Positions 27,032-33,587 of a stretch of DNA of 33,587 bases are shown piece after piece. The translations under genes and the position numbers were made by a program. How positions within the stretch are numbered: the stretch's first letter is position 1; the number at the start of each line of letters is the position of its first letter. The notes under the pieces are model-generated. The model saw only the letters and a program-made list of their open reading frames with translations. It was not told where the DNA came from and did no database searches. This DNA comes from Gammaproteobacteria bacterium (lineage in GTDB: Bacteria > Pseudomonadota > Gammaproteobacteria > Steroidobacterales > GCA-2729495): the NCBI GenBank assembly GCA_027293165.1, contig JAPUGB010000003.1, forward strand, positions 1 through 33,587, given 5' to 3'.

Positions 27032-29839
27032 TCAGAAAAGATCTTGGTCGTCGTCGTATATGGTACTGCCGAAACCGGCGCTGCTGGTATCTTCTGCCTG
27101 GAGTTCCGGTACATGTCCATCGCGGAAAATCTCGAATATAGCATCAGCATCTGCCGCCGATGTGACTAATCCAGTCTCAGGTGAAATCCGCACCGTGACG
27201 ATATCTGGAGGTTGCGGCAGCGGCACTTCTGGCACATCTTCCAACGCTTTAGCCATGAAATATTTCCAGACCGGCAAAGCAGTGCGACTGCCCTCTTCGC
27301 CGGCGCCGAGCGAGCGTTCGACATCAAAGCCGACCCAAGCCACTGCTACCAGCTCGCGATTGAAGCCACTGAACCAGGCGTCACGACGATCGTTGGAGGT
27401 TCCGGTCTTGCCCGCCAGGTCTCTTCTCCCGAGTTCCCGTGCGCGCCGTCCGGTTCCCCGACGAATTACGTCGCGCATCATGTCGTAAACGATGTATGCA
27501 TTCTGGGGCGTGACGATGCGCACGGCCTGATTGCGGCCGCTGAAAAACTCCGTTGTTTCGGCTGCAACCGGGCGCCAGTCCGTTGCGTGGTCCATCATTG
27601 CTACCGCGTCTGTGTAGGCGGGTATCTCCAGGCCGAGTGGCGGCAGAGGCGCGGGTTGCGCCTCACCCATGAGCTCAGCCAATTCCTCGTCCGCAATTGG
27701 CGGTGCGTTAACTCGCTGCGGTAGCAGATCAGCTAGCGCTGAAACATTCGGGGGCGCTTGTTCTCGCGAGTCAAACCACTCGGGCGGACATTCGTCGCAC
27801 ACGTAGCGGGGATCTCGCTGGAAAAAAATCCGCCCGTTCGGGCCCTCGATGCGTTCGATAAGGTAATGGTCGATGCGATGACCACCGCTGGCGAAAGCCG
27901 CGAATCCTGCCGCCATGTCCAATGGCGATGCGCCACCGCTGCCCAGGGCAAGCGACGGGTCGCGCGGCAGTGCGCTGTCGGGGAAGCCGAAGGGTTTGAT
28001 GTGCTGGAGTGCATTGCCGATCCCGGTTCTAAGTAGCACGCGTACTGAAACCAAGTTCATGGATCGGACCAGGCCTTCCCTCAGGCGTGTTGGCCCATAG
28101 AAGCGCCCCGAATAATTCTTCGGCTTCCAGATTTCTTCCAGCGTAGGATCGTCAAACACCACCGGCGCGTCGTTGACGATCGTCGCCGGAGTAAACCCGT
28201 TTTCCAGGGCCGCCGAATAGATAAACGGTTTGAACGAAGACCCCGGTTGGCGCTTTGACTGCGCGGCCCGATTAAATTTGCTGACATAGAAGTCGAAACC
28301 GCCGGTCAGCGCAACGGTGGCGCCGTCCTGCGGATCCAGTGCAACCAAAGCGCCCTGCACCTCGGGCATCTGGGCCAGCAGCCAGCCCTCGTCGGCGGTA
28401 TTCAGCAGGTGAACGATGTCGCCCGGACTCAGCACTTCATGGACCGACAACGGCGGCCCGGATATGATGTTGTCGTTGACATATCGGGGCCACGCCAGTC
28501 CTGTCCATGGCACCTGCACGCGGCCGATATTCCTTATATAAATGAGTGCCGAGGCGTTAGACCATTCGTCCTCGATTGAGGCTTCGGCAGCTTTTGCCGG
28601 GGGTTCGTCCAAAGTGTTTTCCGTCAGCTCAATAACGAATCCCAGATGCAAATCCCGGTAATCCGGATACCCGTCAAGATAGGTCTGCAGCGCTTGGTCC
28701 GGATCAACTGGTCCGGACGCGCCTGGCGCCGGTTCCAGCGTTGCTTTCGCCAGCAGGTCGCCGCCGGCTTCAAACGTTTCCGTCGGCTCATCGTTGCCAG
28801 CATCGAGACCGTCGGCATCGGGTGCGGCACTTGGGTTCAGAATCTCATCGATTGATGCACTGGCGACCGGGCCGCGATAGCCGTGGCGCCGGTCGTACTC
28901 GAGCAGCGCCACGCGCAGCGCCATCTGGGCGTCGGCCTGCAGTCGGCTATCGATAGTCGTCACTACCTTGTAGCCTTTGGTATATGCGCTGGGGCCATAA
29001 CGCAGGATCATCTCGCGACGGACCATTTCGGCGACGTAGGGAGCCTGCAGGTCAAGCTTTGGCCCATGCAAACGAGATTCCATCGGCGTTGCCATCGCAA
29101 TTTCGAACTCAATTCGATCGATGAAATCCAACTCAAACATCCGGCGTAGCACATAAGCGCGGCGTTCCCGGGCCAACGCCGGGTTGGAAACCGGGTTCAA
29201 CCTTGACGGCGCCGCAGGCAGGCCAGCAATGGTTGCCGCCTGCGCCATGCTGAGTTCGTCCAGCGATTCGCCAAAATAGACTTCTGCCGCTGCTGCGACG
29301 CCGTAGGCCCGCTGGCCCAGGAAGATCTTGTTTAGGTATAGCGCGAGAATTTCCTGCTTGCTGAATTCGCTTTCGATCTGGATAGCAAGGATCAATTCCT
29401 TGGCTTTACGCACGAAGGTGCGATCGCGGGTCAGGAAGTACTCGCGGGCCAGCTGCTGCGTGATGGTGCTGCCGCCCTGACTGCGGGAACCGGTGAGCAG
29501 CAGGTTAATGCCGGCACGGACGATGCCCTGGTAGTCGAATCCGGGGTGCTCAAAAAATCGGTCATCCTCGGCCGCCAGAAAAGCGTTAACGACGACCTCG
29601 GGAATATCATCGAATTGAATCGGCGTGCGGCGTTTTTCGCCCAGTTGCGCGATTAACCGCCCATCGCGGGAATAGACTCGCAGGGGAATCTGCAGCTCCA
29701 CGTCCCGAATCGTATCTGCGGACGGCAGCCCAGGCTGCAGGTAATAGTAGGCGGCTAATCCGGTTGCCACGGTCCCAATAGCGAGCGTCGCCAGAGCCCC
29801 CGCCAGTATTGGAAATAGCCAAATTAGAAACTTCCTCAT
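27032..29839 (-). CDS. mrcA: Penicillin-binding protein 1A (bifunctional class A PBP)
   Basis: A 935-residue peptidoglycan glycosyltransferase/transpeptidase anchored by one N-terminal transmembrane helix (about residues 8-33), also called ponA. Glycosyltransferase domain: AAEDDRFFEHPGFDYQGI with catalytic E91, and GGSTITQQLAREYFL (122-136). Transpeptidase: SxxK at S534-K537 (PGSSFKPF), an SMN motif about 55 residues later, and KTG at K811. Between the domains, about residues 320-500, lies an extended insertion with a Pro/Asp/Glu-rich section and an OB-like part, making the protein longer than E. coli PBP1A (850). It is divergent from the pilMNOPQ operon, the arrangement known from Pseudomonas. 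Confidence 0.97.
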   Translation of the reverse strand: MRKFLIWLFPILAGALATLAIGTVATGLAAYYYLQPGLPSADTIRDVELQIPLRVYSRDGRLIAQLGEKRRTPIQFDDIPEVVVNAFLAAEDDRFFEHPGFDYQGIVRAGINLLLTGSRSQGGSTITQQLAREYFLTRDRTFVRKAKELILAIQIESEFSKQEILALYLNKIFLGQRAYGVAAAAEVYFGESLDELSMAQAATIAGLPAAPSRLNPVSNPALARERRAYVLRRMFELDFIDRIEFEIAMATPMESRLHGPKLDLQAPYVAEMVRREMILRYGPSAYTKGYKVVTTIDSRLQADAQMALRVALLEYDRRHGYRGPVASASIDEILNPSAAPDADGLDAGNDEPTETFEAGGDLLAKATLEPAPGASGPVDPDQALQTYLDGYPDYRDLHLGFVIELTENTLDEPPAKAAEASIEDEWSNASALIYIRNIGRVQVPWTGLAWPRYVNDNIISGPPLSVHEVLSPGDIVHLLNTADEGWLLAQMPEVQGALVALDPQDGATVALTGGFDFYVSKFNRAAQSKRQPGSSFKPFIYSAALENGFTPATIVNDAPVVFDDPTLEEIWKPKNYSGRFYGPTRLREGLVRSMNLVSVRVLLRTGIGNALQHIKPFGFPDSALPRDPSLALGSGGASPLDMAAGFAAFASGGHRIDHYLIERIEGPNGRIFFQRDPRYVCDECPPEWFDSREQAPPNVSALADLLPQRVNAPPIADEELAELMGEAQPAPLPPLGLEIPAYTDAVAMMDHATDWRPVAAETTEFFSGRNQAVRIVTPQNAYIVYDMMRDVIRRGTGRRARELGRRDLAGKTGTSNDRRDAWFSGFNRELVAVAWVGFDVERSLGAGEEGSRTALPVWKYFMAKALEDVPEVPLPQPPDIVTVRISPETGLVTSAADADAIFEIFRDGHVPELQAEDTSSAGFGSTIYDDDQDLF

Positions 29840-29857: not shown

Positions 29858-29886
29858 TTGCCTTGCGCGGGTCGATTATGCATATT
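29858..29886 (+). promoter_or_regulatory. Likely promoter of the riboswitch transcript upstream of pilM
   Basis: A -35-like TTGCCT (29858-29863) is 17 bp from a -10-like CATATT (29881-29886); each matches four of six consensus bases. The predicted start, about 29893, would place the riboswitch aptamer at the very 5' end of the RNA, as is usual for riboswitches. The assignment rests on spacing and position more than on sequence quality. Confidence 0.45.
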
Positions 29887-29898
29887 ACGCGGGATTTT

Positions 29899-30016
29899 TA
29901 GGCAAACCCACCGAAAGGTGGGGACGCAAAGCCACCGGTCTAAGGGGCACTCAGCGGTCTACGGCAATCACAGGATGATTGTCACCGCCAGTACAACCCA
30001 GGACAGCGGGGCTGCC
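29899..30016 (+). promoter_or_regulatory. Cyclic di-GMP-I riboswitch aptamer (GEMM-I)
   Basis: The conserved GEMM-I core is present in order: GGCAAACC at 29901-29908, a P2 stem CCCACC (29907-29912) and GGTGGG (29917-29922) capped by a GAAA tetraloop, then GGGACGCAAAGCC (29921-29933), then CCGG and CTAA of the tetraloop-receptor strand (29935-29943). The 3' strand is AGCGGGGCTGCC (30005-30016), equivalent to the AGC-GGG-GUU-RCC end of the Vibrio Vc2 aptamer. CCG 29935-29937 pairs with CGG 30007-30009 to close P3. P3 is extended by about 50 bases and contains GCGGT/ACCGC and CAATCA/TGATTG stems. P1 is not obvious. The expected ligand is c-di-GMP, and the first gene downstream is pilM, about 280 bp away. 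Confidence 0.9.
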
Positions 30017-30088
30017 AGGCCACGGGTGGAACCTTTCACGCCATGGACTGCACCCCTTCTGGGACTGTATCTCCGCCCCTTAGCGGTA

Positions 30089-30122
30089 TCCGGACGCCGT
30101 TCGGCTGTTGCCGTCCGCCGGA
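30089..30122 (+). repeat. Stable hairpin downstream of the riboswitch
   Basis: TCCGGACG (30089-30096) can pair with CGTCCG (30112-30117) and the following CCGGA, leaving a two-base bulge and a 15-base loop. It lies 73 bases after the aptamer and could be part of the expression platform, but no U tract follows, so it is not a typical intrinsic terminator. Confidence 0.4.
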
Positions 30123-30167
30123 ACCGCGTCTGGCTGGCTACGCACTGCCAAAGTAAACGATTAGTCT

Positions 30168-30189
30168 AAGCGTGATCGAAATCACATTT
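30168..30189. promoter_or_regulatory. CRP/Vfr-type operator upstream of pilM
   Basis: CGTGA at 30171-30175 and TCACA at 30182-30186, separated by six bases, match the CRP consensus TGTGA-N6-TCACA in nine of ten positions; the flanking TTT also agrees. The centre is 30178.5. A CRP-family factor (CRP, Vfr or Clp) is the expected ligand. Which one exists in this organism cannot be seen here. Confidence 0.65.
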
Positions 30190-30204
30190 GAATCAGATAT
30201 TTGA

Positions 30205-30213
30205 TGCTATTTT
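30205..30213 (+). promoter_or_regulatory. Extended -10 element of a second pilM promoter
   Basis: TGC (30205-30207) followed by TATTTT (30208-30213) forms an extended -10. Transcription would begin near 30220, which puts the CRP-type site at -41.5, the class II activator position. There is no good -35, as expected for such promoters. The resulting leader to pilM is about 75 bases and would exclude the riboswitch. Confidence 0.45.
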
Positions 30214-30228
30214 CGATCATATATAGTT

Positions 30229-30276
30229 AAATTGGCTGCCTCACGTCGAGCCAATTTGTGCGCGCAAGCGCTCGAC
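30229..30276 (+). repeat. Two competing hairpins in the pilM leader
   Basis: Hairpin A pairs AAATTGGCT (30229-30237) with AGCCAATTT (30249-30257) around an 11-base loop. Hairpin B pairs GTCGAGC (30245-30251) with GCTCGAC (30270-30276). Both use bases 30249-30251, so they exclude one another. B ends four bases before the AAGGGA ribosome binding site (30281-30286) of pilM. Confidence 0.45.
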
Positions 30277-30294
30277 TGAAAAGGGAATTACGGG

Positions 30295-31353
30295 ATGTTT
30301 TGGTCGCGGGCCAGGTCTGTTATCGGACTTGACATAACAACGTCGTCGATCAAGTTGATCGAATTGACGCAAAGTGGCAGGAGTTATCGGGTCGAGTGTT
30401 ACTCGGCAGAGCCCTCTCCGCCGAATTCGATCAATGAAAAAACCATCGTCGATGCGGAAGCCGTCGGCGAAGCGGTGCGCCGTGCAATCAAACGAGCGGC
30501 TACCAACACCGAGGATGTGGCGATCGCAATCAACGGCGACGCGGCAATCACCAAAGTTATTCAGATGCCTAGCAATCTCGGAGATAACGAACTGGAATCG
30601 CAGGTCGAGATTCAGGCAGACCAGTACATTCCTTTTCCAATGGAAGAGGTGAGCTACGACTTCCAGGTCATGGGTGAAAACGCGAACGATCCGGACATGA
30701 TGGACGTGCTGCTGGTCGCGACCCGCACCGAGAACGTTGACCAGCGACGCGCCGCTGTTGAAGCTGCCGGCCTGAAGGCACGTGTCGTAGACGTCGAAGC
30801 CTTCGCACTAGAAAACGCTTGTAACCTGATGACCCACCAGATGCCGGAAAGCGGTATGGACCATCTGGTTGCGGTGGTCGATTTCGGCGCCAGCAGCACC
30901 ACGTTCAGCGTGTTGCAGGACCTGCGTGTTATCTACACGCGGGATTTCAATTTTGGCGGACAGCAGTTGACCGAAGAGATCATGCGTGTCTACGGCCTGA
31001 GCCTGGAGGACGCGGGTCGCGCCAAGAAAGAAGGGGGCCTGCCCAGCAACTATCAGCCCGAGGTCCTGGATCCGTTCGTCGATGACATGACCCAACAGGT
31101 TAGCCGATCGCTGCAGTTTTTCCTGGCGTCGGGCGGTGGCCGTGAGCAGCCGGATCAGATTCTGGTATGCGGTGGTTGCGCCAATATTCCCGGTGTGGCT
31201 GATCTGATTTCCAGCAAGGTTGGCATTCCGACCGAGGTTGGCGATCCCCTCGGCCAGATGAAGATTTCATCCAAGGCCAAGTCGCAGGGCGTCACCCACG
31301 ATTCAACCGCATTACTGACCGCCTGTGGTCTCGCGTTACGGAGCTTTGATTGA
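30295..31353 (+). CDS. pilM: Type IV pilus assembly protein PilM
   Basis: A 352-residue cytoplasmic actin-like (FtsA/HSP70 superfamily) ATPase-fold protein that binds the N terminus of PilN and links the pilus inner-membrane ring to the motor. Signs: the first phosphate loop GLDITTSSIKLIEL at about residues 11-24, QADQYIPFPMEEVSYDFQ, the second phosphate loop VVDFGASSTTFSVL, and the adenosine motif VCGGCANIPGVADLI near the C terminus. Length matches Pseudomonas PilM (354). The ATG at 30295 follows AAGGGA with an eight-base spacer. It is the first gene of pilMNOPQ and is divergent from ponA across a 455-bp regulatory interval. Confidence 0.97.
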   Translation: MFWSRARSVIGLDITTSSIKLIELTQSGRSYRVECYSAEPSPPNSINEKTIVDAEAVGEAVRRAIKRAATNTEDVAIAINGDAAITKVIQMPSNLGDNELESQVEIQADQYIPFPMEEVSYDFQVMGENANDPDMMDVLLVATRTENVDQRRAAVEAAGLKARVVDVEAFALENACNLMTHQMPESGMDHLVAVVDFGASSTTFSVLQDLRVIYTRDFNFGGQQLTEEIMRVYGLSLEDAGRAKKEGGLPSNYQPEVLDPFVDDMTQQVSRSLQFFLASGGGREQPDQILVCGGCANIPGVADLISSKVGIPTEVGDPLGQMKISSKAKSQGVTHDSTALLTACGLALRSFD

Positions 31354-31354
31354 T

Positions 31355-31924
31355 ATGCCACGCATCAATCTATTACCGTGGAGAGACGAACAGCGGGCGC
31401 AGATCCGCAATCAGTTCTATATTTCAGCGGGGGTCGCGTTTGGCATCGCCGCATTGTTCACGTTTTTGGGTTCGTTCACGATGAGCACCATCATCGATGC
31501 CCAATACGCAAGGAACAACCTGCTCGAGATCGAGATCAAAACGCTGGACCAGCGAATTGCTGAAATTCTCGATCTGGAGAAAGAAAAGGACCGGCTCGTG
31601 GCGAGGATGAAGATCATTGAGCAACTGCAGCAGAGTCGGCCGGAAATCGTGCATGTATTCGATGAACTCGTGCGCGCGTTACCCGATGGCGTCTATCTGA
31701 TTTCTGTGAAACAGAGCGGCCGGCGTCTGGAGATCAAAGGCATGGCCGAGTCGAATACCCGTGTGTCAGCATTCATGCGGAACCTGGATAAATCGGAATG
31801 GTTTTTGAACCCCGACCTTGAAGTGGTGGAGGTCAAAGACGACCGCAGCGGTTCAAATAAGAACGCCAGCGAATTTACCGTTACCGCCCTCCAGGTTGTT
31901 ACAAATTCGGAGATGGACTCATGA
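31355..31924 (+). CDS. pilN: Type IV pilus assembly protein PilN
   Basis: A 189-residue inner-membrane protein of the pilus alignment subcomplex. The N terminus MPRINLLPWR is the conserved cytoplasmic INLLPWR motif that docks into PilM. One transmembrane helix follows (about 22-44), then a periplasmic coiled coil (about 48-100, rich in Glu/Lys/Leu) and a small ferredoxin-like domain. The ATG at 31355 lies one base after the pilM stop and is chosen because it gives the PilM-binding motif at the N terminus; the open frame extends further upstream inside pilM. Its stop overlaps the pilO start (ATGA). Confidence 0.97.
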   Translation: MPRINLLPWRDEQRAQIRNQFYISAGVAFGIAALFTFLGSFTMSTIIDAQYARNNLLEIEIKTLDQRIAEILDLEKEKDRLVARMKIIEQLQQSRPEIVHVFDELVRALPDGVYLISVKQSGRRLEIKGMAESNTRVSAFMRNLDKSEWFLNPDLEVVEVKDDRSGSNKNASEFTVTALQVVTNSEMDS

Positions 31925-32556
31925 ACGCGAATATCATCGAAGAAATTCGCAACCTGGATCTCAATGACATCGGACGTTGGCCGTTACTCTTCCGCGCCGC
32001 GTTCGTTGCTCTGGTGTTTATCGCGGCGACTGGCGTTGGTTACTACTACTTCGTCTACGAACTCAAAATGCCCGTGCTGGAACGTGCCGAGGCGCAGGAG
32101 CTTGAGCTCAGAATGTCGTTTGAAGCGAAGCAGCGCAAAGCAGCCAACTTTGATGCGTACCAGCAACAGTTAGCCGAAATCGAGAGGTCATTCGGCACCA
32201 TGTTGCGCCAGCTGCCCGGCAAGACCGAGATTCCGAACCTGCTGGTTGACATCTCACAAACCGGGCTTGGGGCCGGACTGGAAGAAAAACTATTTCAGCC
32301 CATGGATGAGATTCAAAAGGATTTCTACGCCGAGAAGCCGATTAAGATCCGGTTGGACGGCAGCTACCATGAATTTGGGGACTTTGTCAGCGAAATCGCG
32401 GCGCTGCCGCGTATCGTGACGTTGCACGATATCCAAATTACCTCTGAAACGGGCGCGGAGATGGATTTTGACAATCTGGTCCTTGACGTTATCGCCAAGA
32501 CGTACCGATACATGGACGATGCCGATCAGGATCAGCCGCCGGCGGGACGCACCTGA
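31921..32556 (+). CDS. pilO: Type IV pilus assembly protein PilO
   Basis: A 211-residue partner of PilN. A short cytoplasmic stretch with LNDIGRWPLLFRAA precedes one transmembrane helix (about 25-45), then a coiled coil (about 52-100, alternating Glu/Gln/Ala/Leu) and a periplasmic core domain with LFQPMDEIQKDFYAEKPIKI and GSYHEFGDFVSEIA, typical of PilO. PilN and PilO form heterodimers that connect PilM in the cytoplasm with PilP at the outer membrane side. The start overlaps the pilN stop by four bases, and the final base of its stop is the first base of pilP. Confidence 0.97.
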   Translation: MNANIIEEIRNLDLNDIGRWPLLFRAAFVALVFIAATGVGYYYFVYELKMPVLERAEAQELELRMSFEAKQRKAANFDAYQQQLAEIERSFGTMLRQLPGKTEIPNLLVDISQTGLGAGLEEKLFQPMDEIQKDFYAEKPIKIRLDGSYHEFGDFVSEIAALPRIVTLHDIQITSETGAEMDFDNLVLDVIAKTYRYMDDADQDQPPAGRT

Positions 32557-33074
32557 TGGAAAAGCTCTGCCAATGTTTTAGGTGTCTACTACTGGGTATT
32601 GCGGCGCTCGGCGTTGCGGCATGTGCTGGCGGATCGGCGGATTTGCTGGAGTATATCGATGACGTAAAAGCTCGCCCGGGCGGGCGCATTGAGCCGTTGC
32701 CGCAGATCAAACCCTACGACACCTTTGCCTATCAGGCGGGCGATCTGCGCTCGCCGTTTATGCCGGATCAGCCGAATGCGCCGGGCAACATTGCCGGACC
32801 TCAGCCGGTCGAAAATCGCAACAAGGAATACCTCGAGCAGTTTCCGTTGGACACGCTGGACATGGTGGGCACCCTCGATAGATCCGGCAAAACCTTCGCG
32901 TTGGTGCAGACCCTGGATGGATTGGTGCACCGCGTAATTGCCGGCAACTACCTGGGCCAGAACGACGGCCGCGTCATAGCCATCAGTGATGCAGAGATCA
33001 GTTTAGAGGAGCTGGTTTCCGATGGGATCGGGGGCTTTTTCAAACGCTCCGCCGCGATCGGGCTGAGTGACTGA
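32556..33074 (+). CDS. pilP: Type IV pilus assembly lipoprotein PilP
   Basis: A 172-residue inner-membrane lipoprotein that bridges the PilNO complex to the secretin PilQ. The signal peptide (residues 1-22) ends in a lipobox VAAC with C23 as the lipidated residue. A Pro-rich disordered linker with RIEPLPQIKPYDTFAYQ and RSPFMPD follows; in homologues this linker binds PilNO. The C-terminal beta-rich HR domain (about 95-165) has MVGTLDRSGKTFALVQ, GLVHRVIAGNYLGQNDGRV and the final EISLEELV, as in the family. Its ATG overlaps the pilO stop by one base. Confidence 0.96.
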   Translation: MEKLCQCFRCLLLGIAALGVAACAGGSADLLEYIDDVKARPGGRIEPLPQIKPYDTFAYQAGDLRSPFMPDQPNAPGNIAGPQPVENRNKEYLEQFPLDTLDMVGTLDRSGKTFALVQTLDGLVHRVIAGNYLGQNDGRVIAISDAEISLEELVSDGIGGFFKRSAAIGLSD

Positions 33075-33108
33075 CTCGCCTTCAGAGTCTTTGGGAGTAA
33101 TTTCAGAC

Positions 33109-33587
33109 ATGAACACATCTAGGCCGAAACAGGGAAAAGTGTCCGGTCCCGGAACGTTTAGGGGGGCATGGATGGCGCTGGTCCAGATCCTGGTTATTTC
33201 GACCTGGAGTCTGGGAACCGCGATTGCTCAGGAACCGAGCAACAGTTTGATTGATATAGAGGTTCAGGCGTTGCCGGGCAACGAGATCCAGTTGCGGCTG
33301 GTGCTGTCGAAACCGGCTCCCAAGCCGCTGACTTTTACGATCGACAAACCGGCGCGAATTGCCCTGGACCTGGCCGATACCGGCCTGGCACTGGGCAGCC
33401 GGCGAAGGGATGTCAACATCGGCGCCCTGGACACGGTGCTGGTAGCCGAAGCCGGCGGCCGCACCCGCGTGGTTTTGAATCTCGACAAAATGGTTCCTTA
33501 TCGAACACGGGTTCAGGGTAACTCGGTCTATGTCATCCTCAGCGCTGGCAGCGGAGCCGCTATCACTCAATTCGCAGCGGCTGCCGC
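33109..33587 (+). CDS. pilQ: Type IV pilus secretin PilQ, N-terminal part (partial)
   Basis: The first 159 codons of the outer-membrane secretin through which the pilus emerges; the gene runs out of the window. A signal peptide is visible: a basic N terminus, a hydrophobic core around residues 21-39, and a likely cleavage after AIA before QEPS. After it comes an AMIN domain, which binds peptidoglycan in PilQ, with a VQALPGNEIQLRLVLSKPAP block and FTIDKPARIALDLADTGLAL. Secretin and N-domains lie beyond the window. The start ATG is 34 bp after the pilP stop and is preceded by TTGGGAG, a reasonable though distant ribosome binding site. The order pilMNOPQ is the canonical one. Confidence 0.94.
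   Translation, partial: MNTSRPKQGKVSGPGTFRGAWMALVQILVISTWSLGTAIAQEPSNSLIDIEVQALPGNEIQLRLVLSKPAPKPLTFTIDKPARIALDLADTGLALGSRRRDVNIGALDTVLVAEAGGRTRVVLNLDKMVPYRTRVQGNSVYVILSAGSGAAITQFAAAA

Follow-up and report, generated by a model that had tools for sequence, protein, structure and literature searches.

The pilMNOPQ operon in the window, by which we mean the whole 33,587-nucleotide stretch of DNA analysed here, is preceded by a c-di-GMP-I (GEMM-I) riboswitch aptamer and, closer to pilM, by a conserved CRP-type promoter. This is a known riboswitch class at a location for which no earlier report was found, as our literature search, which left most subscription journals outside its reach, returned no description of a gammaproteobacterial pilM riboswitch; its mechanism is less direct than the initial annotation had supposed. 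The best explanation of the sequence data, which we hold with moderate confidence, would be a c-di-GMP-sensing long leader layered on the conserved CRP-type promoter of pilM. The features of the region are as follows.

27032 to 29839, minus strand: mrcA/ponA (PBP1A), the divergent neighbour (NF008643, 689 bits; TIGR02074, 566 bits, cut-off 508.75)
29858 to 29886, no strand assigned: promoter-like TTGCCT-N17-CATATT, within CCTTGC...GATTATGCATATT, conserved in the alignment
29891 to 30019, plus strand: c-di-GMP-I (GEMM-I) aptamer with an enlarged P3 tip (RF01051, alignment, pair counts)
29902 to 29927 and 29930 to 30013: aptamer helices P2 and P3, respectively
29928 to 29930: stretch that holds the A47-equivalent, by our own mapping
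30020 to 30167, plus strand: spacer of 148 nt from the aptamer to the CRP-type site, poorly conserved, where an expression platform would be expected
30168 to 30189, no strand assigned: CRP/Vfr-type site AAGCGTGATCGAAATCACATTT (GTGA-N6-TCAC; consensus match, conservation)
30222 to 30232, plus strand: -10-like block TATAGTTAAAT, belonging to the conserved promoter of pilM (conservation)
30279 to 30285, plus strand: Shine-Dalgarno-like AAAAGGG 5' of pilM (from sequence; a GAAGGG-type block is conserved in the alignment)
30295 to 31353, plus strand: pilM (TIGR01175, 385.4 bits, cut-off 133)
31325 to 31924, plus strand: pilN, start codon uncertain (PF05137, E 2.2e-25)
31921 to 32556, plus strand: pilO (PF04350, E 7.2e-52)
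32556 to 33074, plus strand: pilP (PF04351, E 1.4e-45)
33067 to 33587, plus strand: 5' part of an open reading frame truncated by the window end, start codon uncertain, with a signal-peptide-like start, assigned to pilQ from gene order

When the whole window was compared with all Rfam families using cmscan, the only match above a gathering threshold was RF01051, at 29891-30019 on the plus strand, which covers the full model (1-87) with 69.5 bits (E 8e-12; gathering threshold 35 bits) and has a P3 tip about 50 nt larger than that of the model. The initial annotation had recognised a GEMM-I core at 29899-30016, and this covariance match bears it out: the element is the same, its proposed limits fall a few bases short, and the motifs that it listed are all present at the places given, namely GGCAAACCC (29901-29909), the GAAA loop (29913-29916), GACGCAAAGCC (29923-29933), CCGGTCTAA and AGCGGGGCTGCC (30005-30016). 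In a MAFFT alignment of 26 pilM-linked homologues, made by sequence and not fitted to structure, the GAAA and CTAA columns and those of the ligand pocket are invariant, and 99.2% of cells pair under the Rfam structure, compared with 36-50% for control structures shifted by one to three columns. Furthermore, six pairs show two-sided changes, a number reached by 2 of 500 shuffles, and the covariation score of the alignment was reached by none of 500. All these alignment data indicate that the window aptamer is a real element under selection as RNA. An open reading frame that overlaps it (29858-30169, 103 aa, TTG start) was discarded as a chance frame.

GEMM-I aptamers include c-di-GMP and cGAMP members, and a G20A change in a class I switch permits cGAMP binding (PMC6274999). 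Using our own mapping of Vc2 numbering onto window positions, derived from the junction description in that paper, the G20-equivalent is G 29902 and the equivalent of C92, which pairs with the ligand, is C 30015, both invariant in the 26 homologues. These two bases argue for a predicted ligand of the c-di-GMP type, in line with the ligand class named by the initial annotation; the cGAMP (GEMM-Ib) class was rejected because it needs an A at the position-20 equivalent. The genome also encodes 12 GGDEF proteins above the Pfam cut-off.

The assignment of the aptamer to pilM had been argued from pilM being the next gene on the strand, which alone is weak; the association is supported because it is conserved in relatives. 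Among same-family relatives with an examinable pilM and upstream region, 26 of 34 have the aptamer 5' of pilM and in the same orientation. It also precedes pilM in representatives of three further families within the order (f3, f4 and f10), and chance placement there is expected at about 7e-4 per genome. In two small lineages, at L077, L078, L079 and L082, a visibly degenerate aptamer sequence occupies the same place, and the remnants in L082 and L077 score below the Rfam threshold (28.1 and 23.5 bits). These remnants look like decay or loss of an ancestral aptamer, and several of these relatives have small genomes. Two other relatives, G042 and G056, contain 21 and 11 c-di-GMP-I aptamers, none of them upstream of pilM. 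Rfam asponA (antisense to ponA) gave sub-threshold matches, pointing toward pilM, in L071 (2928-3147), L078 and L082; conservation of the ponA coding sequence may be all that they reflect.

Other c-di-GMP-I aptamers were also surveyed. The genome holds seven, and two of the others precede minor-pilin operons (GspH/FimT-type, PilV-like and PilW); in relatives, aptamers are also found 5' of M23 peptidases and of Ig/fibronectin-type surface proteins. In the same genome, an 83-aa C-terminal GGDEF fragment (L173:1753-2004; PF00990, profile 100-160) is located between another c-di-GMP-I aptamer and a minor-pilin operon. Two near-identical copies of an aptamer with an FAD-binding oxidase gene (L170 and L171, on G000 contigs C53 and C183; PF01565/PF04030 in L171) represent either a recent duplication or an assembly artefact, and one more aptamer (L172:1569-1653) precedes a 191-aa open frame without a Pfam match.

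The initial annotation had held that nothing intervenes between the aptamer and pilM. This does not stand, since a CRP-type site and a -10-like block occupy 30168-30232 and are conserved also at loci without the aptamer. At 30168-30189, 18 of 22 positions agree with the E. coli CRP consensus, and none of 1000 shuffles was as good. An alignment of 23 leaders places the GTGA-N6-TCAC palindrome about 110-122 nt 5' of the pilM start, followed by GATATAT(A/G)GTTAAAT; the exact palindrome is present at 12/22 aptamer-bearing and 44/53 aptamer-less pilM loci (0.35% of shuffles), and TATRGTTAA at 20/22 and 49/53, respectively. The distance from the CRP centre to the -10 block is 30-31 nt in 51 of the 53 loci having both elements, near class II geometry, and 43 nt in the window genus, where the 12 nt added, about one helical turn, depart from class II geometry. 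The roughly 12 extra nucleotides lie within 30186-30221 of the window and, in the set examined, occur elsewhere only in the same-genus locus L068. The genome encodes a class III cyclase domain and a CRP/Vfr orthologue. The orthologue has P. aeruginosa Vfr as its best match (4.6e-75) and retains both its recognition helix and RSAWVR, the motif of the cAMP pocket. Taken together, these findings make it very probable that pilM is served by a CRP-type promoter of its own, 3' of the riboswitch, which would predate the riboswitch or at least be more widely distributed. Because this promoter lies between the aptamer and pilM, only transcripts initiated 5' of the riboswitch can be subject to riboswitch control.

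A candidate origin for such transcripts is the CCTTGC...GATTATGCATATT block directly 5' of the aptamer, conserved in 19/22 aptamer-bearing loci; its promoter-like core at 29858-29886 fell below the cut-off of a consensus promoter scanner. The block is also retained where the aptamer has decayed, and could therefore belong to mrcA or be bidirectional. It may mark where the riboswitch transcript begins, act as the promoter of the divergent mrcA gene, or do both, and the start of the riboswitch transcript is therefore one that we infer.

In the layered arrangement that we favour, the distal input would be the c-di-GMP-I aptamer. Transcription beginning 5' of about 29891 and proceeding toward pilM would place it in a long leader, and ligand binding would alter the share of this long transcript that reaches pilM or is translated. 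The proximal input would be the CRP/Vfr-type promoter (30168-30189, with the -10 at about 30222), giving pilM transcripts without the riboswitch, so that c-di-GMP would modulate only part of pilM expression, as in V. cholerae tfoY. Ligand binding, a transcription start 5' of the aptamer, CRP occupancy and read-through into pilM are all steps that we infer. More tentatively, we suggest that the alignment/secretin operon of type IV pili in the window's family might join c-di-GMP, through RNA, and cAMP, through CRP/Vfr, at one leader, where the riboswitch transcript would cross a CRP-dependent promoter and the two inputs could interfere or add.

The poor conservation of the spacer, together with an intact promoter-like region between aptamer and pilM that is conserved without the aptamer, would also suit a different arrangement. 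In it, the aptamer would form the 5' part of a short RNA of its own, either a small RNA under c-di-GMP control or a decoy, which would stop within the 148-nt spacer, and pilM would be transcribed from the CRP-type promoter only. Vc2 of V. cholerae is reported, in the title of a paper cited by PMC7371385, to affect a putative small RNA. However, the window leader has no terminator that would end such an RNA, and the conserved linkage to pilM, together with the genome's other aptamers in front of minor-pilin operons, favours control of pilus genes in cis, so we consider the separate RNA unlikely.

We rate as improbable a classical transcription-terminating riboswitch like that of G. metallireducens pilM, in which the ligand would hold the aptamer 3' strand out of a terminator. 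An intrinsic terminator, that is, a hairpin followed by a T-run, was absent from the window leader, and only scattered weak ones were found among 22 homologous leaders. In addition, the aptamer 3' strand paired with sequence further downstream no better than in shuffles or swaps, by either duplex energy or contiguous-helix score (genus mean z -0.6 and -0.5; Fisher p 0.41 for all leaders and 0.73 for genus medians). What speaks for termination comes from two groups of relatives: in three g6 leaders (L080, L087 and L088) the aptamer 3' strand can pair with a downstream GGCAG strand that is followed by a T/C-rich tract, and genus-wise alignment folding was suggestive, post hoc, in g8 only, where two pairs of an alternative helix show two-sided changes in a set of six sequences (a post hoc hand count that does not bear directly on the window). 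Rho-dependent termination was considered and set aside, since C barely exceeds G in the window spacer (0.33 and 0.28), which gives it no real support. As for the direction of control, we lean to an ON effect solely on the model of other switches for type IV pili and claim no sign, the sign of c-di-GMP riboswitch control not being transferable between species (PMC6366702). Lastly, the decayed copies in related small genomes might suggest that the aptamer survives at this locus only as a recognisable remnant that has ceased to regulate pilM; this is very improbable given that the window copy retains all invariant positions and that 99% of cells pair across the homologues.

In gammaproteobacteria, the control that c-di-GMP exerts on type IV pili has usually been described at the level of proteins, such as MshE in V. 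cholerae (PMC7096442), and a conserved riboswitch before pilMNOPQ would extend it to RNA for the core of the pilus machine. The aptamers at pilM and at minor-pilin operons together suggest that type IV pili of this uncultured gammaproteobacterial lineage may be served by a c-di-GMP regulon acting through RNA, and with its conserved CRP-type promoter the leader offers a testable example of two second messengers converging on a single operon.

Several known systems can be compared with this leader. G. metallireducens also has a GEMM-I-family aptamer before pilM, but that switch, which belongs to the Geobacter examples that the initial annotation had offered as a c-di-GMP precedent, senses cGAMP and works as an ON switch at the level of transcription, using a defined terminator (PMC9262584), whereas the window aptamer has G as its specificity base, no terminator was found in its leader and a CRP-type promoter follows. 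Cdi-2-4 of Clostridioides difficile likewise places type IV pilus genes, the pilA1 operon, under a c-di-GMP riboswitch, although through a class II aptamer acting as a read-through ON switch in a Gram-positive host (PMC6366702). The proximal promoter resembles CRP/Vfr class II promoters in having GTGA-N6-TCAC 5' of the -10, with its centre in relatives about 41.5-43.5 from the inferred start, and differs in the window genus, where the site is displaced upstream by about one helical turn. By analogy, the closest architecture to the window leader is that of V. cholerae tfoY, which has four promoters, with riboswitch-containing mRNA arising from P1 and P2 only (PMC7371385). Vc2 represses translation, whereas no expression platform was found in the window leader. 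In V. cholerae the switch governs tfoY and the activator, VpsR, itself binds c-di-GMP; here the target would be pilMNOPQ and the proximal site is of the CRP/Vfr type. The two systems share a c-di-GMP-I aptamer carried on some transcripts only, with promoters driven by transcription factors within or downstream of the riboswitch that yield, or in the window would yield, riboswitch-free mRNA (PMC7371385).
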